Shown here piece by piece: positions 16,118 to 63,888 of a stretch of 64,000 bases of DNA. The position numbers and the translations under genes were made by a program. Source of the DNA: Hirudinaria manillensis (Eukaryota; Annelida; Clitellata; Hirudinida; Hirudinidae); contig CM067527.1 in assembly GCA_034509925.1 (NCBI GenBank), positions 10,897,501 to 10,961,500 on the forward strand, in the 5' to 3' direction. The notes under the pieces are model-generated. The model made no database searches. It was not told the DNA's origin and was given only the letters and a program-made list of their open reading frames with translations. The stretch's first letter is position 1; every line of letters begins with the position of its first letter.

Positions 16118-16743
16118 ATGGACCTATCGACAACAAGTTTTCTGCATCCCACCCATCATCATCATCATCATCATCAACAACAACAGCAACATCATCATTA
16201 TCAAGAGCAGCAACAACAAAGCATCGACCCGTGGTCCGACCTTTTGAACGCCACGGGCACGCCCCTGACACCACAGGTGCGAAACATCTACCTGGCTTTG
16301 ATCGAAATCACGGTGCAAAGCCTCATCTTCCTCGTCGCAGTCGTCGGCAACGCGAGGGTGGCCGTGCTTCTCCATCGGTCGAGGACCGTGGCTGCAGGAC
16401 CGACCAGAGCGGCCAGGAACGACTCCGAGAGGGAGTCCGTGGTGAGGATGGACGGACAGCCGGAGGAGAAGAAGGCGACGACGACGACGACGAAGAGGAA
16501 GAAGAAGATGACGAGACTCTCTAGGATGAACTACATGATGGCCCATCTCACCGCTGCAGATCTCTTCGTGGCCTTCTTTAACGTCCTACCCCAGGTCAGC
16601 CTTAGGGCATCATCATCATCATCGTCATCATCATCGTAATTGCAATCGTCGTCGTCGTCTTCTTCTTCATCGTCATTACCATACACTTCATCATCATCGG
16701 CAAAATCGTCAACATAATATGAATCATAATATCGATATCATCG

Positions 16744-29930: not shown

Positions 29931-32152
29931 AATATTATCTCATCCTTTAATAAAATAATTTCGTAATAAATTGTTGAATGCCAGTGAAAATGCTTCAACC
30001 TCTCCATAATTTCCAAATCATTCTGCTTTTTGACGTCCACAAATTTGTAATCAAAAATTTGTTTTTGGTTCAAAATGTACTATCAATTAGTCCTTGTCAT
30101 ACCTTTGAGTGCCTCGAAATATCATGGTATTTTAGATCCGATTTATTCCTGAAATAAATATTATTAAGAGTCAAATATTAAATATACTTCGTATAGTATT
30201 AGTGGTATTGTCTCATTTAAACGGTAATGCTGTAATTGTGATATAATTATACGAAAATACTGTAAATAATTGTAAGGGCGCAAATTGCTAGTTTTTTTCA
30301 ATTTTTATTTATGTCAACCCTCGAAAAAAAAATTTTATTTTCTCTTGATAAAAAACATGGACGAAATTCGCTCAGCAACGATTAAGAAAACGATTTTAAA
30401 CCAGGTGTACGTAATCTGGGTGGCCCTCTCCATATACGCCATTCCGGTAATAATCCTCCTCTGCACCTACACCCTCCTCTGCAGAGCCGTTTGGACGAGT
30501 TTCCAGACAGGCGTCGAGCCGGGCATGAGGGTGGAAAGAAAGAAGTTCTCGCTGACCTCTTTGACCTCCAGTTTCAGATCCACTTCCACCAAAACAAGTT
30601 CCCTTCTGAGAGGCAGAAGACCCTTCCTCAAAAATCATTTTCGATCGAAGACTGTCGAGCAGATCGAAAAGGTCGACAAAGGAAACGGTCTGGAAATGGA
30701 AATCCTCATTCCGTTCGGAAATCGAGGAATCCAGAAACAACATCAGCAACCCGTTCATCCAGCATCGAACGACGAGGGTCACAATTTCAGCGACAAAATC
30801 AGTCGCAAATCTCCGTTCGTAGCCGGCGTCGTGACATTCAAATTGCCAGAGAAAATCCTGGAAAGCGATCGTCGACTTCCTGGGCAGTTTCGCAGAAGCG
30901 CCAAACATCCAACGTTCGCTGGATTAAGCGCCGTCGCCGGCCGAAACTGGAAACTGAAGATCCGATCGGAAACCTTTGCTGGATCTCCAGCCACGAAGTC
31001 CGAGCTGGAAGAAGGCTTTACCGAAGATGCTCGGAAACAAAACGGAGAGACTTTCAACGATCCGGCAAAATCGGAGGCCGAATTGGACGTCGGTCTGTGT
31101 ATCGAGCAGGCTAACAGAGTGCCCACCGTGTCAAAGAAGAAAAGTCAAATGTCACGGGCCAAGATACGAACGGTGAAGCTGACAGTCATCATCAACATCT
31201 CTTATCTGCTCTGCTGGTGTCCATTTTTCTTCTCCCAAGTTTGGGCGGCCTTAGATGCCAAGGCTCCATACGAGGGTAACTCGGCATTTCTTAGTTTGAT
31301 TGTTATATTTATGGATTGTTTTCTTGTTAAATTCTTTATTTGTTCAGGTTTTCAAAGAAATTATTTTAAAAAATGGAACAGTAAAAATCATTAAAAAATA
31401 ATATCAGTTAATAACATAATGTTTCTTCATTATTAGTCTCAAATTATCTTTGTTTTCTATTTCCAAGATTTATACTAAACAATAATCAAATAACTAAATA
31501 ACATTAACTTCAATAAATAATTCTTATTTAGAGCAGAAAAATTCTGATCTCGTACGTAATATAATATAGTTTAATATAACACAATAAGATCATCCTTTGC
31601 CTTCTTTATGCTCCTCGCACCCTCCTCCCTTGGCAATGCTCAGTGGATTGCGAGCGGTTTGACATTTTATGGTCGTATTTTTGAAGCAGAAAAAAATCTT
31701 AGCGGACAGCGATTTTATTTTCGAGTCACAGATTTCTTTAAATTTACAATTCTTGTTATCTTCTGAGTCCGGTCCAATACGTTTTCTGGGAACAATTTAA
31801 CACTTCGCAAGCTTCCACTTCATGGACTGTTACTTTCTGAGTTTGATTTTCTCCATTGTTGATTTATAAACTTGGAACTATTGGTGGAAAAAAATGGCAG
31901 GTCAAAAAATCGCATTCGCCGAAGCATTATGGCAGCTTTATCCAAAACCCATTTGGAACTGCGGAACAGATTAATCGCTTAATGCCACAATTTGGTAGAA
32001 TTTATGAATTTATTTATAAAAGAAAAAATTTGTTTTCAGGTCCAGGAATGACAATAACCACACTTCTGGCCAGTCTCAATAGCTGCATGAATCCCCTGAT
32101 ATTCATATTTTTCGTTCACATCCAGCGAGACAAGAAAGTACGGGTGAAATAG
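16118..32152 (+). CDS. Vasopressin/oxytocin-type G-protein-coupled receptor
   Basis: Five exons: 16118-16594, 22774-22946, 25507-25645, 30405-31275, 32040-32152; 590 residues. TM1 is about residues 58-85 (GN at 77-78), TM2 about 138-157 ending FFNVLPQ. TM3 carries Cys175 and ends LDRHSAIC (D199 R200 H201 in place of DRY). PARRS-like SARRS precedes TM4. Extracellular loop 2 has [10 protein letters not shown], the family signature, with Cys252 pairing Cys175. TM5 is about 268-292. TM6 follows SRAKIRTVK (513-521) with [13 protein letters not shown]7 has [14 protein letters not shown]. These match vasopressin/oxytocin receptors closely, so a plasma-membrane neuropeptide receptor is likely. Oddities are a His/Gln-rich N-terminus (13-34), an Asn44 glycosylation site, an intracellular loop 1 of about 50 residues, a loop 3 of about 218 residues, and a very short C-tail. 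A GT after DKK (about 32136) could splice to a further exon. Confidence 0.9.
17826..18140. repeat. AT-rich minisatellite, roughly 36-bp unit
   Basis: Tandem degenerate copies built on TTATTATATTATAG plus TAATATTTATTAATT or TCATATTCAATCATT variants, about eight or nine units. The two variants appear in a partly ordered series, which suggests unequal exchange inside the array. Confidence 0.8.
20566..20585 (+). promoter_or_regulatory. Intronic TATA plus reverse CCAAT candidate
   Basis: ATTGG (reverse CCAAT) at 20566-20570 is followed closely by TATAAATAG at 20577-20585, a near-ideal TATA consensus, in a short GC-richer island within GPCR intron 1. It could drive an alternative transcript or a non-coding RNA. 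No downstream coding exon other than GPCR exon 2 (2.2 kb away) was seen. Confidence 0.25.
23422..23720. repeat. ATGG/ATGA tetranucleotide array
   Basis: Degenerate GGAT units with GAAT and GACG variants, in GPCR intron 2. A second array of GATT units (TTGA repeats) occupies 23925-24082. Confidence 0.9.
24296..24465. repeat. AT-rich minisatellite, 22-27-bp unit
   Basis: About seven degenerate copies of a unit like AAATTTATTTATAAACCATTTT in GPCR intron 2. Confidence 0.75.
25998..26300. repeat. ATCC/GTCC tetranucleotide array
   Basis: CATC/CGTC array with an internal higher-order pattern. A block of roughly 68 bp with CCGTCCGTCCGTCC recurs near 26060 and 26130, and a TCTCTCTTTTATCC motif recurs three times near the right end (26196-26282). 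It lies in GPCR intron 3. Confidence 0.9.
26690..27060. repeat. AT-only TTA/ATA-rich tract
   Basis: Almost G/C-free sequence made of TTATTA, AATAAATA and TATATAA motifs in GPCR intron 3. It is followed by a TG-rich stretch at 27168-27250 and a long AAT array at 27573-27697. Confidence 0.85.
27698..30404. other. AT-rich remainder of GPCR intron 3
   Basis: Extremely AT-rich sequence with short TTA and AAATA tracts (28676-28702, 29035-29060, 29900-29927) and one TTG run (28513-28537). I see no coding-like stretch or RNA gene. Confidence 0.6.
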
Positions 32153-38569: not shown

Positions 38570-41092
38570 TCAGACATCAGTTGTGTGTAGGAGACAATTT
38601 TCCAAGTTGTCTCCCCATAGCTGAGGAGTTCTGAGAAAATCTACCTCTGGTCTCGCGAATCCTTCTCTTTTGACGCTCCAGACGGGTCTGAATTTCTCTG
38701 CTCTGTTTGGACTCGACTTTCTGGTCAGGTTCCTCAAGTAACCAGCTATGAAGAAGCATGCGAGAACCGTGGAGAAGGTGAGAAGAGCAGTCAACGCTCC
38801 AACCACGAGGAGATTCAACTTGGTATTGACATTACCCAGGATAGTTCTGGCCCTGGACAGGTTCCAGTCGCTGGTGGAATTTGTGGACTCGTAGGGACAC
38901 GTCAGCAACAATTCGAGAAAAGAGCATAATTTTGGCAAGCCGCCATCGCACGCCTCTGCCACCAAGGAAATGGTTTCTCGGTGATTGCAATGGTAGTGGT
39001 TGGTGAACTCTATCTCTTGCCTTGCGACATCGAATCTGAGAAGGGCAATCGAACTTTGAACTTCGACGCCGATTTCAGCGTTTATTCCCTCGTCAATGTC
39101 ACTGACATGGACAGAGAAGAGTATGGTGTTGGCTGAAACGAGCGCTGGCAAGATCAGACTAAAGGACATGGAGAATAAGTTTGAATTTCTCTGCCTTTGG
39201 TCTGAGTAGGCTATAAAGTGCATCTCTGGAACTGTAAAGGATTTGTAATGTCCGCTAAATTGCTCAACCAGAGTCAAAAATGGAGAATTATCATTCTCGT
39301 CGAGTATTTGAATCGACACATTGGCAGTGTCAGCCACCAATGTCTTGCTGCCTTGTCTAACATCCAAGACTTCAACCTTGAAATGATAGAATTCTCTCAT
39401 TTCTCTATCAAGTTCCGTGGATGCCATAAGTTTGCCAGTGTGAGAATCGAGATGAAAATTCTCGTGTATCAACTTGTTTCCTTTTAAGCGGAAGGCAGTA
39501 TTACCGCTTTTGGTGGTGTTATGTTTTTCCTTTAACTCGCTTTTCGAAGCATGGCCAATTCTTCTGCTCATGAGGCTAAGGACGCCAATAGAGGTTCCTT
39601 CGGGTTGGTTTTCGAAAACTTGGAAGGAAAATTCTTTCCTTGAAAACTTCAAATTGATTTCTTCGGATCGGTCGGCTTCCAACTTTGCTGCTGTTTCTGG
39701 CAAGCCAATCTTCATGAGAGACTTGTGGTATGGAGAGCTGTGGCTGTTGTTAATGACTTTCTCGGGAACGGAGTCACGATGTGATGAACTGAGAGAAGGA
39801 ATGATTCTGACGAACACCGTTGTCCTGTCGCTTAATGGATGTTCTCCGCGGTCCTCAACTCTCACGACCAGTCTATAGACGACGGTTTCTTCTATTTTCC
39901 ACAAGCGCTTCTGAATGAATATCTCTCCAGTCGTTTCGTCCACGACGAAAATACTTGCGGATTCAAAGTCGGTCTCTAAAGGAGGATTCTGCCATTCGAT
40001 TGGAGAAAGGAGTTGGCAGGAATCAATGAAATAATGAACTTCACCATTCTTCCCGCTATCAAAATCTCCTGCCTGAACTTTTCCCAATGCAAACTCACCA
40101 ATCGTTATTTGGTTGACATCGAATTCGTAGATAGACTGTTCAAACTTTGGAGAGTTGTCATTAAAATCTTCAACTGTAACTTTGATCAACAACTGAGCTT
40201 GAAAGGCCGGATCACCTCCGTCAACAGCCAGCAGCCTTAGCCAATGAACGGCTCTCGATTCTCTGTCTAATTGAGTTTTAATGCGCAAAACCACGCCCAG
40301 AATTAGACCAGTTTCTTTTAATTTCTGGATGTCCAGTCGGAAAAATCTGCTCGTCGCTTCGTTTGTTTCCGAGAGTCCGCGATATTCGAAGCCGGTGTCA
40401 TGTAAACGTGAAGTGATGTTTTCTGCTTCTATCATTTCTTCGATGAAATAAGTTTGAATGCCGAACTTGATAGAATCCTTGTCTTCAGCCAAAGGCAGAG
40501 CAGATCCGCTGCCAATCGGCGCAAGTTCCGAAAACGAGACTTGGAAAGATTTGCCGGAGCGTTTGAAGGTCGGCTTGTGATCGTTAATGTCTAAAATATA
40601 GACTGAGATTTTTAAGATTTCACGAAAACACGGCCAACCTCCACTCTCGACTGAGTTGAGAACGTCCAAATGAACGAGACAAGATTCGTGACTGAGAGCG
40701 TTGCCTGAACATAACTCTTCACGGTCGATCTTTTCGGCAACTTTCAAGATCCCAGACGTCGAATTAACTCCGAAAAGTGTCAAAGAGCTGGACGAATGCC
40801 TTCCGAAAAGTTTTTGGGAGAGGATGAGGAAGTTGTTGCTTTGGAAATTGTTATAGCTAATCACTGAACCGAAATTTAACTTTAAATGTTTCAAGTCAGC
40901 TGTCAAATCTGCTACCACCGTTTCGGGCGGCAATTCTTCGAATGTTTCGTATCGAAGCTCAAGTTGTCCAACATCGGATTGATTCCTCTTGATAGTATCA
41001 TTTCTTAAAACAGTTTTTATCGCGAAATTTTTATTCTTAATCAATTCGATCAAGCCAATAAAGAATAACAACGAAATAGGCATGCTCAACAT
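38570..41092 (-). CDS. Protocadherin-like cell adhesion protein, single exon
   Basis: An uninterrupted 840-residue frame. A hydrophobic N-terminus (ISLLFFIGLIELI) serves as signal peptide; an in-frame Met at residue 4 is an alternative start. About five cadherin repeats are visible. Calcium-binding linkers are DINDHKPTF, DFNDNSPKF and DENDNSPFL, with DRE-type motifs IDREEL, LDRESR and LDREMR. Repeat 3 lacks a DxNDN linker and repeat 5 is degenerate. One membrane segment follows (about 760-786, LLVVGALTALLTFSTVLACFFIAGYL in part), then a basic cytoplasmic tail of about 54 residues. Calcium-dependent homophilic adhesion at the cell surface is expected from the family. Encoding the whole ectodomain in one exon is typical of protocadherins. 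There is no catenin-binding tail. Confidence 0.88.
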   Translation of the reverse strand: MLSMPISLLFFIGLIELIKNKNFAIKTVLRNDTIKRNQSDVGQLELRYETFEELPPETVVADLTADLKHLKLNFGSVISYNNFQSNNFLILSQKLFGRHSSSSLTLFGVNSTSGILKVAEKIDREELCSGNALSHESCLVHLDVLNSVESGGWPCFREILKISVYILDINDHKPTFKRSGKSFQVSFSELAPIGSGSALPLAEDKDSIKFGIQTYFIEEMIEAENITSRLHDTGFEYRGLSETNEATSRFFRLDIQKLKETGLILGVVLRIKTQLDRESRAVHWLRLLAVDGGDPAFQAQLLIKVTVEDFNDNSPKFEQSIYEFDVNQITIGEFALGKVQAGDFDSGKNGEVHYFIDSCQLLSPIEWQNPPLETDFESASIFVVDETTGEIFIQKRLWKIEETVVYRLVVRVEDRGEHPLSDRTTVFVRIIPSLSSSHRDSVPEKVINNSHSSPYHKSLMKIGLPETAAKLEADRSEEINLKFSRKEFSFQVFENQPEGTSIGVLSLMSRRIGHASKSELKEKHNTTKSGNTAFRLKGNKLIHENFHLDSHTGKLMASTELDREMREFYHFKVEVLDVRQGSKTLVADTANVSIQILDENDNSPFLTLVEQFSGHYKSFTVPEMHFIAYSDQRQRNSNLFSMSFSLILPALVSANTILFSVHVSDIDEGINAEIGVEVQSSIALLRFDVARQEIEFTNHYHCNHRETISLVAEACDGGLPKLCSFLELLLTCPYESTNSTSDWNLSRARTILGNVNTKLNLLVVGALTALLTFSTVLACFFIAGYLRNLTRKSSPNRAEKFRPVWSVKREGFARPEVDFLRTPQLWGDNLENCLLHTTDV

Positions 41093-41837: not shown

Positions 41838-43644
41838 ATGCATAATAAGTCTTATAATACATTTATACCAGATAAACATAAGCAAGGCAAGTCAAAATGC
41901 AGTGACGACAGTGACAGCGATGGAGCCCCAGAAGAAATGACTTTCAAGGAAGGGCTGGAGAAAATGCTCGAGACAAAGAGGAACATCTCCAAGAAACTCG
42001 AAGAGGAAAAAGAACGACTGAGGCAGAAAAGGAAGAGACACGAGGAATTGTTCATTGAGCAAAAGGTTTGCTTTTCGATTCTTATGCTGAGCCTTGATTT
42101 GAATTTACTTTGTTGAATTGATGGTTGATTTGCAAAATTTGTTTGAATGGTAAATGTTTCAGTGTAACTGCAGGAACTTGTGTAAACCCATTTAAGCTGT
42201 CAGAAATATTCCCTTTTACCATTGTGTTAAAAATAAAACAATTTAAAATTCATGATGAACACGTGGCATGTTTTGTATCACCAAACAGAAACAGAAGTTG
42301 GCCAAACTCGAGAGCATGAAACTGCCGGAGGATTTCCTCGAAAACATCGACGACAAACCCAAAAAGATTTCCAGGAAGTCCGAAAAGATTGAAAATGACG
42401 ACGAAGAAGAGGAAGAGGAGCAGGATGACATGAGTATGTTAATTTGACTGATTATTTTTGTGTTTGTTGTAAGTATTATTGTTTAATGTTAGTTTTTATT
42501 GTCTTGTTTTACATTATGGTTAATATAATAATATGTTTAATAATATTTACTTTATATTATATTTAATATTTTTATTTATTTACACATTTTAAGCTGTGAA
42601 TTTTATGACATTTGGGCATGAATCAATTAATTGAGTGCAGAAAAGATGAATAATTGATTTTAATGTGTCAAGTGTGTGGCTTTACATTCAAAGGATTGTT
42701 GAAAGCTGTTTGCTGTCACATCATATTGTTTTCAATTGCATTCATTTAATCAGATGCTGATGATGATGATGATGTCAACATGGACGGCGATGAGGAAGAT
42801 GATGAAGAGGAGCACGAGGAAGATGATGGTGATGATGATGATATTGAAGAAGGGTTGGTGATTTGTTTGTTTATAAAAACAATAATGAATTAGTGCATAA
42901 TAATAATAATAATATAAAATTGCAATTGAACAATGAATATTTTACCGCTGCACAAATTAAAAAAACTCTATTTTGAATAAATCTGTAAATATAATCTGAA
43001 ACATAAAAAGAAAATGTTATCAAATATTACCTGACAATGGTACATTTCCACTGTCATCCAGGAAAACTGGCATAATTGTCATTCATTCGGTCCCCAAGAA
43101 GAAAACCACCCCTGCCTTTGAGAGGGCACAAGAGTTCAAGATGAAAGCTCTTTTTGGACCATCGGCCAAGAGGCAAACCAGTCAGTGGCTCAGATTTTAT
43201 GTTTTGTTTCTTTGAATTTATTTATTTATTTGGAAACTTAATAATACTTTTAGGAATAATTGGTTAATTTGCTTAGTGCTTTCTCTAATCAGTTCTGCAA
43301 CTATTTATCCATTTATAAGTGCTTGTGGTGGTAGGAATTTCAAGCGCAACATGTTATGATGTTTATTAATATCGTTGCATGAATATAATTATATAAGATA
43401 ACTCTGTTTATGATCAATATAACTATATAAGATAACTTTGTTATACCATTTACCCACTATTATTTATTGTATTTTTTTTTTGTTGTTGATGATTTATCTC
43501 TTTATTAATTTATTTCAGATTTACATCTCCTATTTCTATGATTTGTAATAATAACATTTCAAAATAAATAAATAAACAACTTTAAAATCGTTTCCAGTGA
43601 AAGCCTACCTCGGCATGCGAGAAAAAAGGAAGTTCAGAAAATGA
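41838..43644 (+). CDS. NOL7: NOL7-like nucleolar protein (SSU processome)
   Basis: Five exons: 41838-42065, 42289-42433, 42754-42853, 43062-43180, 43598-43644; 212 residues, phases consistent (human about 257). Exon 1 contains APEEMTF, then a charged helix and QKRKRHEELFIEQK, almost identical in pattern to human NOL7 (APEELTF and KRREELFIEQK). Exons 2-3 encode a very acidic linker (DDEEEEEEQDD and long Asp/Glu runs). The C-terminal NUC129-type region has AFERAQEF, LFGPSAKRQT and REKRKFRK. NOL7 is nucleolar and works in pre-18S rRNA processing. An acceptor-like AG at 41868-41869 inside exon 1 means the true first exon could lie further upstream. AATAAA is at 43701-43706, 57 bp after the stop. 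Confidence 0.85.
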
Positions 43645-43892
43645 AAGAAATCAAACTGTTACCTTAGAATGACTCGTCATTGATTTAAGATTAAAAGTAA
43701 AATAAAGACCATTTAATAACCAAAATGATTTTTATTGAATATCAGGGTCTCGATTTTGAAATTTCCTCGCTGAGTAGTTTTGATATCCATCCACATTTGT
43801 CCCGTTTCAAAGTCTTGAGTTTCACGAACTTCTTGTGCAAATTGTAACTAACAGCAGTAATAATATTACTAATAATAATGGTATCAGATTCT

Positions 43893-44220
43893 TCAAATAT
43901 TGCCCCATTTGATGAAAATATCCAAGTTGGGGTCCACAGTGTTTACAGTTGTCTCATTCTCTGCTCTAATTATTTCTGGCTCAAAATCTTTTCCTATATC
44001 ATTGAAAAAAGTAGAATAATTATTGCTAACAAAGTCATTATTGTTATTATTATATTTTATTCCAACAACCTTTAACTATTTCTAATTATTCTAAATGTAA
44101 ATTATTTAACTTTAAAAAGCATTAAAACAGACTCTCATCAGTCTTCAATCCAGCTTCTGAGTGCCTCAGGAGACAAATCAGGGACACGAGCAGAACAAAG
44201 TGTTCACGTTTTACAAACAT
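43893..44220 (-). CDS. Small secreted peptide precursor 3 (62 aa)
   Basis: Unrecognised by homology. Exon 1 (44220-44133) encodes a signal peptide, MFVKREHFVLLVSLICLL, then RHSEAGLKTDE, and ends in phase 1. Exon 2 (43993-43893) restores the frame at a dibasic Arg-Lys and continues as DFEPEIIRAENETTVN to IKWGNI and a TGA. The result is exactly 62 residues, the same length as the gene at 44777-45395, with the same exon phase and a basic pair at the junction. The acceptor is an unusually AT-rich ATATAG. AATAAA on the minus strand at 43731-43736 ends it, about 25 bp from the convergent NOL7 signal. A TTTAAAT near 44256 may be the TATA element. Inferred to be a secreted, proteolytically matured peptide; function unknown. 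Confidence 0.55.
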
Positions 44221-44776
44221 CTCGATACAAACTGAGGCCGCATTGCTGTCATCCATTTAAACCGTTTTCGTCAATCGCTCTTACCTTTTTATTAACGATT
44301 GATTATTAAAAATGGCTTGATATGATTTATGATTGACAGATAATATCAAAGGCCATTGAATTTCAGATTTATAATGATAAATGGAAGTCAATAAAACGTG
44401 GCTGATGCTAAAATCTTGTTGTGATCTTGTTGCTGAAAAGGAAGCACAAAGCTGGGAGCAACGTATCATTCTTTTAGTTAGCTGCTTTCTTGTATTAATG
44501 TTTTCTTGCGTGTCAATAATAATACTACTTGACATACTTTTCTATAGAAAGTTTTTGTTTTTTTTAGGTTTAAAAGCTGAATTTCAGGAAAATTATTATT
44601 TCTTTATTTTGCGACCACGTTCAGTGTTTATACTTTCAGTATTTAAAAATGTCGTTTTAAAAAATGGAATTCATTGAGAGTCAGAGCACCATTTTATCGA
44701 AAATTTTAAGTTATTTCTTTTGCCATTTTCAAAGTTTTGAGATTTTCACAATGAAATAAAAATCAATATCCGCCTG

Positions 44777-45395
44777 CTAGCAGGTCTTTGCTGAGACAGA
44801 AGTTTCAGGATTGAGTGGATTGCCATTTAGATCGGTTTTGATGTTAATGTACGCCTCTGGATCTTCCGCTCTCTTTCCGTCTGGAAAAATATTGAAACGA
44901 ATAATCGTGAGATTTTTGTTAGTTTAATTAGTTTTGGCCCTGCAAGGGTTTATTATATTGATTGCTGTGAGTAAAAAGACTTGCATCTATTTTTTAAGCC
45001 TAGATCGTTGCTAGTTAAAGCTTAGATATAATATTTATTTATTTAATATTTTAAATTTAGAACAATTTAAAACCGCTTTTAACTAGTTGCGAGTAGTAAT
45101 TGTAATATTAATAACAGAAATCCATTATTTCTGAATATTTAGACTTTTCAATTCGCACAGAATAACCATAAAAATAGCTGTCGAATAAATCCTCAAAACT
45201 GGCGCCTCTGAAACCAATTGAACCAAAGAAACCAACTGTTTATAAACTTATCAATACTTAATTATTCATTAAGTGTCTATTAATATTAATTTTTGAACGT
45301 CAAACTTTACATGTTGGATTTCCATAAGGAACAGATTCTGTTTGAACCAAAAGGCAGATTAAAGTAAGAAACAGAAATGCTTTTCCGAATTTCAT
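44777..45395 (-). CDS. Small secreted peptide precursor 1 (62 aa, GKR site)
   Basis: Exon 1 (45395-45311) encodes MKFGKAFLFLTLICLLVQTES, a clear signal peptide, then VPYGNPT, and ends in phase 1. Exon 2 (44880-44777) opens with the completed Tyr and GKR, a classic amidation-plus-dibasic cleavage site. It continues with AEDPEAYINIKTDLNGNPLN and ends SAKTC, with TAG at 44777-44779. If processed as neuropeptide precursors are, the product before GKR would be an octapeptide VPYGNPTY-amide, with a 30-residue C-terminal peptide. TATAAA on the minus strand at 45455-45460 lies 60 bp upstream of the start, and AATAAA lies at 44603-44608. No known family recognised. An alternative internal exon near 45210 was examined and does not fit the phase. 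Confidence 0.6.
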
Positions 45396-47568
45396 GATGA
45401 ACTCCGCACGATACAAGCCAAGAAACATTCAATTCATTCAGCCCAACGCTTAAATTTATATCAAGCTAATTTATTTTAAAGTAATTCTGACGTTGATTTA
45501 TTGTTTTATCATGTTCGATGTTTGTTACGACTTGTGATGACAACTTTATTGACGAGTTTTTAGTGGCTCTGAAGATTTTACGGTTCGTTGATTTTGTGTC
45601 TTAAGGAAAGTGATATGTGTTTGTGACTTTTCGAGAGGGGAAGGAAAACTACTATTATTACCATTAAAATTATTATAATATTTTAATCCAGCAACTGTTA
45701 ACATGTGTTTTAAACGCATTTAACTGCGCGCCTTTGGACATTCTGTCCAACTTTCTATATTGAAAAATATTGAAATGGCAATTATATCGGAGGGTTTAGT
45801 GGGGCTACAGGTGTTAAGATGTTACGGTTAGTCATCAGACCAGTACTGCGCGATTCAATTGGCAGATCATCCATTCGTCCTTTTGTTCGCCCGTACATTC
45901 ATTTCTCGGTCTGTCTGTCTACCCATCCATCCATCAGGTAGGAAGGAAGGAAGGAAACGAATTGTCATGAATGATTTCTTGACGAACGATGAAACACCAC
46001 GGATATTGGGTGATGCTGGAGAAGGAAAGCTTGGTGGTGGAGGCGGTGTGATAGAGCGATCGTTTAAAGCATTTGTTTATATAAAATTAATTTAAAATAA
46101 AAAGATTTCAACACTTTACCCCGTCGCTCGACTAAATTTGTCACAAAATGAAAGTATTTATTAAATTATAAAAAATAAAACAAAACTAATGAAGGCATTA
46201 AAACATCAAAGCAAACATTCAAAGCAGTTTATTATCAGATAATAATTTTTCAATATTATCAAATTAATATTGTCATTATTTATTAATATCGTTTATTGAA
46301 TATTTAATCGGTAATTTGAAATAAATGGGTTGCTACTCCATCCTTCTTCAGTCCTGCATCTGTCGATGATGGTATAAGGTTTTTTTTGTCCAAATTTAAA
46401 TATTTCTCAGTCAACTCAAGCATAAATCAACGAACCTTCTTGACATCGAACTGACTCCTGTCTTGCAATTTATTAAACTTCATTGTCATTCGAGCAGAGA
46501 AAAAAACGACTGAACGTCGTATCTTCTACGTATTTCACATAAAATATTATCACTTATAAATGTCCCATTTTAATTAAATTATTTTATCACCAAACGACAA
46601 AGGATATGTAATCTTTGCCCGCATTTAGTGCAACTGGAATCTGTAGAACAATCCTGAAATGAAATCATACTGTCACAATATTTCATTATTTTTTAAAATG
46701 ACCAGGAAGCCTTTTTAAACCTCGTTTGTTATTTCTTGAAATCGCTCGATTTCTTACTGCAAAATACTATTTTTAAATCCACAACCAAACAAGTTCCAAA
46801 ATTACAATTTATGGACGATCAACTTGAAATTTAACTTGCATTTATTTTTCTATTTTTCGAAATTTTGCAATTATCGGACGTAATTCATTTTACTCTCAAT
46901 TATCATCAAATTAATCAATTAAACAATTAAATTGATTGTAAATGCAAAATAAAATCAATTGACATCGTTAAATTAGGGTCTGGATGGGTTTAGGTACTAA
47001 AGACCCCTACCTGTGAGTTGTCATTTGCATGCCACTTAACCTAATTCGGTTAAGTAAGAAGTTTAGAACGTGTAATACGAATTAAGTTTATTTAATAATT
47101 AGTTAAACAGTTAACTTTCCAACAGAGGCGCGCCAAGTGAATGTTTTTAATTCATTTTTAATGCAAAAATATCAATTTTGACTATTATATAATATTGCGC
47201 TCCGGCCAATTTAGGTAGGGCTTATCCTTATTGTATGGGCTGCATCAGTTAATCAACTTCTCCGAATGAAATTCCACGGTCGAAAATAAAGCCATAAGTT
47301 AAAAATTAGTCGCTAACTTTCATGTAATAATGATAATCGCTTTTATATGTTTTTGGCAACACATCCCTGCAATGAAAAGCAGGAGGACAATTTTAAAAAT
47401 TAATCTGGAATTAAAAAACTTCAACACTTTATTTCGATCTTCAATCTAAATACTTTATAAAACGTAAACTGCCATATTTATTTAATTACAAAAGAATAAT
47501 CATAATTAGATGAACATTATATATCTCTGCGGGTCTGTAATTTTCAGGGCCGAAGCATTTCCAGAGGT
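45396..47568. other. Intergenic region with an orphan promoter copy
   Basis: No coding exon is seen. It contains the duplicated 5' flank at 46337-46985 (listed separately) and AT-rich unique sequence. A frame at 45859-46095 on the plus strand has repeat-like composition (CATC and GGAA units) and is not supported as a gene. AATAAA on the minus strand at 47477-47482 serves the gene at 47569-48318. Confidence 0.6.
46337..46985 (-). repeat. Diverged copy of the 5' flank at 48315-49015
   Basis: Same order and orientation as the flank of the gene at 47569-48318. Shared stretches include CTTCTTCAGTCCTG, ATCTGTCGATGATGGT, AACTCAAGCATAAATCAACG, CTTGACAT.GAACTGACTCCTGTC, AGAACAATCCT and AGGAAGCCTTTTT. 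Similarity begins exactly at the start-codon position. Here the would-be start is followed at once by GAG TAG, so the signal-peptide exon is absent. Confidence 0.85.
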
Positions 47569-48318
47569 TCAAGGCCAATCGCTCGTTATTGGTCCAACTT
47601 GTACACTAGGCAAGCCGACCTGAACATCGGGCAAGCCAACCTGAACATCGGGCAAGTCGACCTGCAATCCGGGATAATTCACGTCAACACCTGGCAGACC
47701 AACACTTCCGGATACATCAGGAAGGGTAGGATAAAGAGGATCGACAGCCACGTTGGGGTACTGTGGTTTGGTTTTGTCGAAGTTGAGATCCAACAATTTC
47801 GTACCCAAGAGGCCGAGGTAAACGCCGTTCACATTGCCTTGCTCGTCCCAATCGAAGCCGATGGTACGCTTGTCTGAAATAATAATAATAATAATAGAAA
47901 TAATAATTACTGTTATCAATAATAATTAACAATTACTTAATCATCATTAAACAATATTCTAGTTCACTACAGAGAGAAATATGGTAACTAAAATAATTTA
48001 ACTGTACCACAATACTAAGACTATAATTGTAGCCACAGTATTAAATAATCCTATTTATGCATTTAGTATTATTACTGTGATTATTGATTAATAATATAGC
48101 AAGACTACCAGGACCAGTGAAAATATTTAGCCTGGAAACTTTAATAATGGCATTAATGCTTAATATACAGTGGTTAATATAGAAATAAAAAGTAATTAAG
48201 GAATATTTTATTAAATATAAAAAATAAATTATCTTCAAAGCATCATGAAACCTGTTGGTGCTGCCTCTGTCAGGAAGAGTAAGCAAGCTACTGAGACGAA
48301 CAAAGTCTTGGCAATCAT
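47569..48318 (-). CDS. Small secreted peptide precursor 2 with GLPDVQV repeats (123 aa)
   Basis: Exon 1 (48318-48252) encodes a signal peptide, MIAKTLFVSVACLLFLTEA, then APT, ending in phase 1. Exon 2 (47873-47569) opens with DKR, a dibasic site, then TIGFDWDEQGNVNGVYLGLLG. The C-terminal half is repetitive: VDLPDVQVG, LPDVQVG and LPSVQVG in tandem, preceded by LPGVDV and YPGLQV variants. It ends ITSDWP with TGA at 47569-47571. The exon plan and junction dibasic match the two neighbours, and the QGNVNG segment resembles DLNGNPLN of the gene at 44777-45395. Secretion is well supported. The 7-8-residue Gly/Leu/Val repeats would suit a structural, adhesive or antimicrobial role, but this is a guess. 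AATAAA lies at 47477-47482 (minus). Confidence 0.65.
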
Positions 48319-49698
48319 CCTTCTTCAGTCCTGTATCTGTCGATGATGGTTTAAGGTTCCTTCGGCCGAATTTAAATGTTTTTCAAGCCAACTCAAGCAT
48401 AAATCAACGAACCTTCTTGACATTGAACTGACTCCTGTCATGCAATTTATTAAACTTCATTGTCACTCAAGCAGAGAAAAAAAAAATTAAGTGTCACATG
48501 CTTTGTACATTTTACGTGAAATATTATCATCCCTATCGTAAATAAATTGTTTTAATACCATTTTATTGCCAATTGACAGAGAAGGAATATAACATTTATA
48601 TTTCATAATTTAGTCTGCAACCGTTAGAACAATCCTCAAACTAAATCGGGCTGTCATAATATTTCATTAATTTTAATATTTTTGGAAATGATCAGGAAGC
48701 CTTTTTGAACCTCATTAGTTATTCATTAAGTCACTCAAATTTTTTTGGTGGCAAAATAGTATTCAGTATTATTTAAATTCATAACCAAATAAGTTCAGGT
48801 AATTTGTTATTTAATTTTAATTTTATTTATATTCAATTTAATTATAAATTGTGGACGAACATTTCGAAATAAACTTCTTGTGGACATTTTGCATAATTTG
48901 AAAAGTCAATCTGATTATAACAGATGAAATTCATTTTACTCTCCATTATCTTCCTATAACTAGATTAACCCAATAATTAAATTGATTCATTGAAGCAAAA
49001 TAAAATGAATAAAACATATAAAATATTATATTCAAAATATCGACATCCGTCATCAATTTGAGAATGACAGACGACTCGAGTGTTTATTGAACATTAACCG
49101 AAGCACGTCACGCTCCGTCGACACTCAAGGACAAAACTGTCGATTGATTCGTTCAAATAAATGCCCGAATAAACTATGAATTTCATGACAATTTACAGTT
49201 TTTAATAAAAAATCTTTGGCAATCGTCCTTCTGCAGATTATGGAACCATTTTGAATGGCCATGTGATCGTAGAAAATGCCAAAAAAAAGGAGAAGAAACT
49301 GGGGGTATTCCAACAAATGACATCATCTCAGTTCCATCGACAAGTCATCACATCATGTCACCCACATCCCTTGTTATCATCATCATCACCAGTACCTGCT
49401 TTTAGAGGCCAACTTGTCCCATAAATATCATTTGAAAATACATCTGCGCTTCCCAGAAAACACACATTATTATTATTATTATTATATTATAAAAAAACGA
49501 TCATAATAAATATTATAAACAAATTAAGTATGGTTACACCAATTACAAAGTATTGTTCATGCTAAAAACATCAAGTAACACTAATAATAAGCACAGCACA
49601 TCGATGATAACGACCACGGGTAACATACAATTTATTACAATAAATAATAAACCTTGCTAATTAACATTAAATATGGAGAAGTGACTGCAATTATGCAA
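48319..49698. other. 5' flank of precursor 2 and intergenic sequence
   Basis: 48315-49015 is the sequence duplicated at 46337-46985 and should include the promoter, with a TTTAAAT at 48371-48377 as TATA-like element. At 49208-49235 a short stretch resembles the start-codon region of precursor 2, but with ACG in place of ATG, possibly a decayed copy. A minus-strand AATAAA (TTTATT at 49631-49636) belongs to TRAIP. Confidence 0.5.

Positions 49699-53092: not shown

Positions 53093-63888
<10,796 letters not shown>

Follow-up and report, generated by a model that had tools for sequence, protein, structure and literature searches.

A 64,000 bp stretch of the genome of the leech Hirudinaria manillensis (GenBank assembly GCA_034509925.1, contig CM067527.1, positions 10,897,501 to 10,961,500; hereafter the window, in whose own numbering positions are given) contains, within 4.4 kb, three two-exon gene models on the minus strand, here called genes 1, 2 and 3, and a dead duplicate of gene 3 that lies between genes 3 and 2. 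On balance we favour the reading that these form a small tandem cluster of genes for secreted leech proteins, apparently restricted to one lineage, of which gene 3 is the clear member. The three models had been proposed in an earlier sequence-only reading, and spliced translation confirmed them as follows: all three introns are in phase 1, the putative signal-peptide exon comes first in each, and exon 2 begins at DKR in gene 3, (Y)GKR in gene 2 and (E)RK in gene 1. Signal-peptide cleavage (^) was placed by eye.

Gene 3, minus strand: ATG at 48318, exon 1 48252..48318 and exon 2 47569..47873, 123 residues.
Gene 3 exon 1, 48252..48318, minus strand: putative signal peptide MIAKTLFVSVACLLFLTEA^APT, ending in phase 1 at CAG/GTTTCA.
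Gene 3 exon 2, 47569..47873, minus strand: KR, then a predicted 98-residue acidic, Cys-free mature part, stop TGA.
Gene 2 exon 1, 45311..45395, minus strand: MKFGKAFLFLTLICLLVQTES^VPYGNPT, donor GTAAAG.
Gene 2 exon 2, 44777..44880, minus strand: (Y)GKR, then a 30-residue acidic peptide, stop TAG.
Gene 1 exon 1, 44133..44220, minus strand: MFVKREHFVLLVSLICLLRHSEA^GLKTDE, weak donor GTCTGT.
Gene 1 exon 2, 43893..43993, minus strand: RK, then a 31-residue acidic peptide, stop TGA.

Genes 1 and 2 both encode 62 residues and both contain LICLL, as had been reported, and all three genes pass a simple hydrophobicity rule for signal peptides. Their mature parts are all acidic (net charge -9, -3 and -5 for genes 3, 2 and 1, respectively), and an AATAAA follows the stop codon by 136, 169 and 157 nucleotides in the same order. 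A TATA-like box stands 60 nucleotides before the ATG of gene 3 (CATTTAAATT), 61 nucleotides before that of the dead copy and 65 nucleotides before that of gene 2 (TATAAATTTA); gene 1 has only weak candidates, 74 and 41 nucleotides before its ATG.

Judged by its sequence and conservation, gene 3 is a real gene. None of 465 null stretches had codon usage as good as that of its exon 2. The homologue P0001 is 73% identical to it over 102 columns (exon 2), with 41 of 45 residues identical from the KR on, and in the reading of P0001 intron sequence appears to give way to exon at this basic pair, as in gene 3; a shorter homologue, P0002, is 70% identical over 87 columns. A profile search added P0003, a diverged paralogue with 55 of 92 identities to P0001 and 45 of 90 to gene 3, in which the basic pair reads MR and the otherwise conserved C-terminal ITSDWP is absent. 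P0003 and P0001 both come from an ENA contig of 612,950 bases and are thus probably on one contig, and P0003 looks like the outcome of duplication or conversion within P0001's lineage. The genome that holds P0001 and P0003 is presumed to be that of a leech. The label "fast-evolving", given earlier to the whole family, misfits gene 3: this other genome holds a well-conserved version of its mature part. The mature protein has a conserved N-terminal segment, tandem heptads of the LPDVQVG type, visible on direct reading of the sequence, and a conserved VGPITSDWP end. We agree that no described family is recognisable: genes 1 to 3 have no Pfam match at E 10, P0001 and P0003 have none at E 0.01, and the best PDB sequence match of gene 3 (E 0.36) is not meaningful. 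Protein searches of the own genome (148 Mb) with genes 1, 2 and 3 retrieved only the query itself in each case, the same search with P0003 retrieved gene 3 only, and Rfam and tRNA scans of the window gave no match.

The life of the gene 3 product can be imagined as follows: the signal peptide would be removed after TEA, and a furin-type convertase would then remove the four-residue propeptide APTD at KR and so release a 98-residue, Cys-free protein of net charge -9 made up of the N-terminal segment (with beta strands, according to a low-confidence model) and the heptad tail. The protein would most likely be secreted by a gland or an epithelium and act extracellularly, not as a receptor peptide; we prefer this to a neuropeptide role on the ground that what is conserved is one long chain, with neither an additional basic pair nor an amidation site.

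The sequence-only reading missed the dead duplicate of gene 3 at 46.08-46.96 kb, which consists of the following parts, given with their counterpart in gene 3:

46339..46960, minus strand: copy of the sequence upstream of gene 3, with its leader, as far as the ATG, found by alignment; the coding sequence is absent beyond it.
46083..46188, minus strand: copy of part of the gene 3 3' untranslated region, 67% identical over 113 columns, about 150 bp past the copied ATG.
48316..48476, minus strand: gene 3 proximal promoter and leader with the TATA-like CATTTAAATT, 90% identical to 46339-46499.

The 5' leader can be aligned exactly to the gene 3 ATG, beyond which likeness returns only in the 3' untranslated part, and no coding remnant was found in the copy by tblastn. 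Gene 3 has thus been duplicated in tandem, and the copy has lost its coding part and kept its promoter; each of the two genomes holds a second copy, either diverged or decayed. In the proximal 160 columns, next to the ATG, 144 are identical, compared with 349 of 549 (~64%) in the distal columns, where one patch, at 48625, does better (33 of 40). Such a difference points to selection on both promoters during most of the time since they separated, in which case either the loss of the coding part would be recent or the promoter of the dead copy would still serve; local gene conversion is an alternative explanation of the proximal 90% and distal ~64% identity. The promoter-leader block has only two copies in the 148 Mb genome at the sensitivity of the search. 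The dead copy may be a live promoter without its gene (46339-46499).

Are genes 2 and 1 also kin of gene 3? The claim of a tandemly duplicated family holds for gene 3 and its dead copy, where it rests on alignments; for gene 2, where the promoter word and signal peptide are suggestive, it is likely, and for gene 1, with weaker evidence, it is plausible. The three signal peptides end in CLLFLTEA, CLLVQTES and CLLRHSEA, which all fit CLLxx[ST]E[AS]. They were compared with random signal-like frames taken from 34 of 44 sequences (10 loci overlapping the window were excluded), of which 270 of 273 were left after the three genes were dropped. CLL..[ST]E, a motif chosen after the genes had been seen, occurs in 0 of these 270 frames and CLL in 2, and in each of the six comparisons at least 268 of the 270 frames gave a poorer match than the signal-peptide exons give to each other. 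When the gene 3 protein was compared by tblastn with all six frames of 43300-47560, the two best matches fell on signal-peptide exons, that of gene 2 at E 0.086 and that of gene 1 at E 0.68, neither significant alone. Upstream of gene 2 there is also a short promoter word:

45582..45594, plus strand: 13-base promoter word GGTTCGTTGATTT, inverted relative to 48401-48413 and 46424-46436 (minus strand).

Of the 19 genomic copies of GGTTCGTTGATTT, three are found here, ahead of gene 3, the dead copy and gene 2, and its reversed control has 3 copies in all; the 19 sites have no common flanking repeat by eye except at gene 3 and its copy. CGTTGATTTAT is likewise found upstream of gene 2 (45491-45501). 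The promoter word is common to genes 3 and 2 and is not found at gene 1. An older kinship is probable for genes 2 and 1: both would have retained the signal-peptide exon, and gene 2 a TATA-type promoter as well, with mature parts that diverged past recognition. A bolder version of this kinship is a leech-restricted, toxin-like prepropeptide family that keeps the promoter and the signal-peptide/propeptide exon and replaces or diverges the mature exon, and that includes an amidated VPYGNPTY-NH2 member and a dead copy whose selected promoter possibly drives RNA; we regard it as unlikely.

Several points weigh against the tandem cluster of secreted-protein genes that we favour. The mature parts do not align above shuffles (p 0.15 for genes 1 and 2, 0.42 for 2 and 3 and 0.99 for 1 and 3), and since the whole proteins do beat composition shuffles (p 0.0005 to 0.01), the likeness sits in the signal peptides. 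For the same reason the D..GN.N segment that two genes had been said to share carries no weight; it is in fact found in gene 3 only (DEQGNVN), as gene 2 reads DLNGNPLN (D..GN..N). The null set consists of random frames and not of real signal peptides, so the 270-frame comparison may overstate the kinship, and the BLAST E-value of the promoter word shared between upstream regions, 0.059, is suggestive only. Gene 2 has no homologue in the protein database search and no paralogue in its own genome, and gene 1 has no paralogue in its own genome, the sole place searched for it. The lineage restriction is deduced from three matches (P0001 to P0003), and splicing, signal cleavage, secretion and the extracellular role of the cluster proteins are predictions from sequence. 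The gland role suggested for gene 3 has no direct support. The AlphaFold model of gene 3 exon 2 has low confidence (mean predicted local distance difference test, pLDDT, 40.7), with predicted strands only at exon 2 residues 4-9, 15-21 and 25-29.

It is also necessary to ask whether such exon pairs arise by chance, as they might if only gene 3 (with its dead copy) were real and genes 1 and 2 were, in this AT-rich DNA, unrelated genes or open frames that arose by accident. We searched both strands of the 64 kb with a permissive model, defined as a signal-peptide-like ATG exon, a phase-1 GT, an AG, a basic pair no later than residue 5 of exon 2 and at least 28 codons. This gave 31 ATG/donor models, and 6 of the 7 top-scoring ones were gene 3 or lay on the two long coding exons (30.4-31.4 and 38.6-41.1 kb). 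Outside these two exons gene 3 leads with 51.2, followed by gene 1 with 12.0 and gene 2 with 10.3; a model elsewhere with a poor acceptor (5234/4756) scores 9.8 (8.8 with another donor), close to gene 2, and the next elsewhere scores 3.4. Across 20 first-order simulated windows scores reached 5.7 at most, so the exon pattern exceeds the first-order chance model, narrowly for genes 1 and 2. The donor matrix behind these scores was loosened by hand after the leech introns of the flanking genes had been read by eye and was not independently trained; with a generic metazoan donor matrix and thresholds of 0, no model in the window passed, genes 1 to 3 included.

The donors GTTTCA (gene 3), GTAAAG (gene 2) and GTCTGT (gene 1) are non-canonical, which we count as a weak point. 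In the flanking TRAIP-like and NOL7-like genes, read for introns at 41.9-43.2 kb (plus strand) and 49.7-52.1 kb (minus strand), 0 of 6 frame-consistent introns (one of them open in two frames) begin with GTAAGT, and the +3 base is T in 4 of the 6, as it is in gene 3; G at +5 is present in 5 of 6 and absent in genes 3 and 2, and C at +3, the state of gene 1, occurs in 0 of 6. Codon usage supports exon 2 of gene 2 weakly (4.3% of 5932 null stretches equal it and another frame scores as high) and that of gene 1 not at all (24% of 6208 null stretches are as good); for the first exons of genes 3, 2 and 1 the corresponding values are 7%, 49% and 10%. The ordinary codon score of gene 1, the borderline one of gene 2, the weak donors of both, the lack of homologues found for them and the closeness of the non-cluster model to gene 2 all speak for their being chance frames or unrelated genes. 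On the other side, both outscore the best of the 20 simulated windows, both have polyadenylation signals, gene 2 has its TATA box at nearly the distance of gene 3's, and their signal peptides resemble that of gene 3. We hold this explanation to be a real but minority possibility.

The sequence-only reading saw in the cluster the layout of neuropeptide and peptide-hormone precursors, from which convertase cleavage and amidation would yield short signals, above all VPYGNPTY-amide from gene 2. A prepropeptide plan with a signal peptide and a basic pair is supported, and a signal peptide followed by a short peptide and GKR is the layout typical of amidated peptides; gene 2 (signal peptide, VPYGNPTY, GKR, 30-residue remainder) has this order. 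It is the only one that does: the amidation signal G[KR][KR] occurs in gene 2 alone, GKR is lacking in genes 1 and 3, and in gene 3 there is only one basic pair, with a mature part that is long and conserved in place of a short conserved peptide. Neuropeptides are usually conserved within a phylum, but gene 2 matched nothing in the protein database, from which short exons may be missing. VPYGNPTY, YGNPTYamide and NPTYamide, like GFDWDEQGN, YLGLLGTKLLDLN and GPITSDWP, were not found in the literature searched for these strings, and literature on leech neuropeptides, leech dibasic precursors and Hirudinaria neuropeptides, judged mostly by title, offered no title on this locus. Compared by description and not by sequence with the Platynereis neuropeptide precursors (PMC3890597), the cluster proteins are alike in having a signal peptide and a basic cleavage site, with Gly-Lys-Arg in gene 2, and gene 3 is unlike them in having no repeated short peptides, amidation site or second cleavage site. 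The neuropeptide explanation does not fit gene 3, may hold mainly for gene 2 and is improbable for the cluster.

Two other kinds of secreted protein invite comparison with the cluster. The insect attacins have a short propeptide that ends at a basic pair before a Cys-free mature chain, and innate immune effectors of this attacin/coleoptericin layout would match the plan of gene 3; the duplication and decay of the gene 3 copy, and the second diverged copy elsewhere (P0003), would also suit them. The cluster proteins differ from attacin by their acidic mature parts and the lack of a Pfam match, and we consider an immune role of this type very improbable. The clustered antithrombotic families of Hirudinaria manillensis are protease inhibitors and the like, mostly Cys-rich, and genes 1 to 3 are unlike them in having no more than one Cys beyond the basic pair and no Pfam family. 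The likeness to these families is in their small secreted products; in Hirudinaria manillensis, 9 of 12 multi-gene antithrombotic families each lie on a single chromosome (PMC10671345).

The following were seen elsewhere in the window and genome:

30375-31391, plus strand: seven-transmembrane receptor exon (PF00001), closest in PDB to oxytocin/vasopressin receptors (best E 8.2e-15).
16118-16639, plus strand: no Pfam match; by eye it looks like the N-terminal exon of the receptor at 30375-31391, about 14 kb away.
38570-41092, minus strand: a single 840-residue open frame with cadherin domains (PF00028, E 3.3e-26), unbroken over 2.5 kb.
57049-61270, plus strand: a retrotransposon-like gag-pol frame (1193 residues) overlapping a 268-residue frame that by eye resembles the rest of the integrase part.
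1624-2373 and 826-1578: long low-complexity tandem arrays that give artificial frames (THSL and HPSI repeats).

The genome (148.43 Mb, 23 contigs) has at least 63 antistasin-domain matches, 50 of them on the window's contig (C2), and 8 matches to hirudin, a leech family, on contig C4 (best E 5.8e-6).

What would the cluster mean? From its sequence it would probably be a new family, ordinary in kind. With it, a conserved, undescribed and probably secreted protein with a convertase-type site is added in a group of animals whose secretions serve medicine. In this one compact locus the promoter, the signal peptide and the mature part appear to evolve at different rates, and the dead copy offers a ready-made footprint of the promoter.

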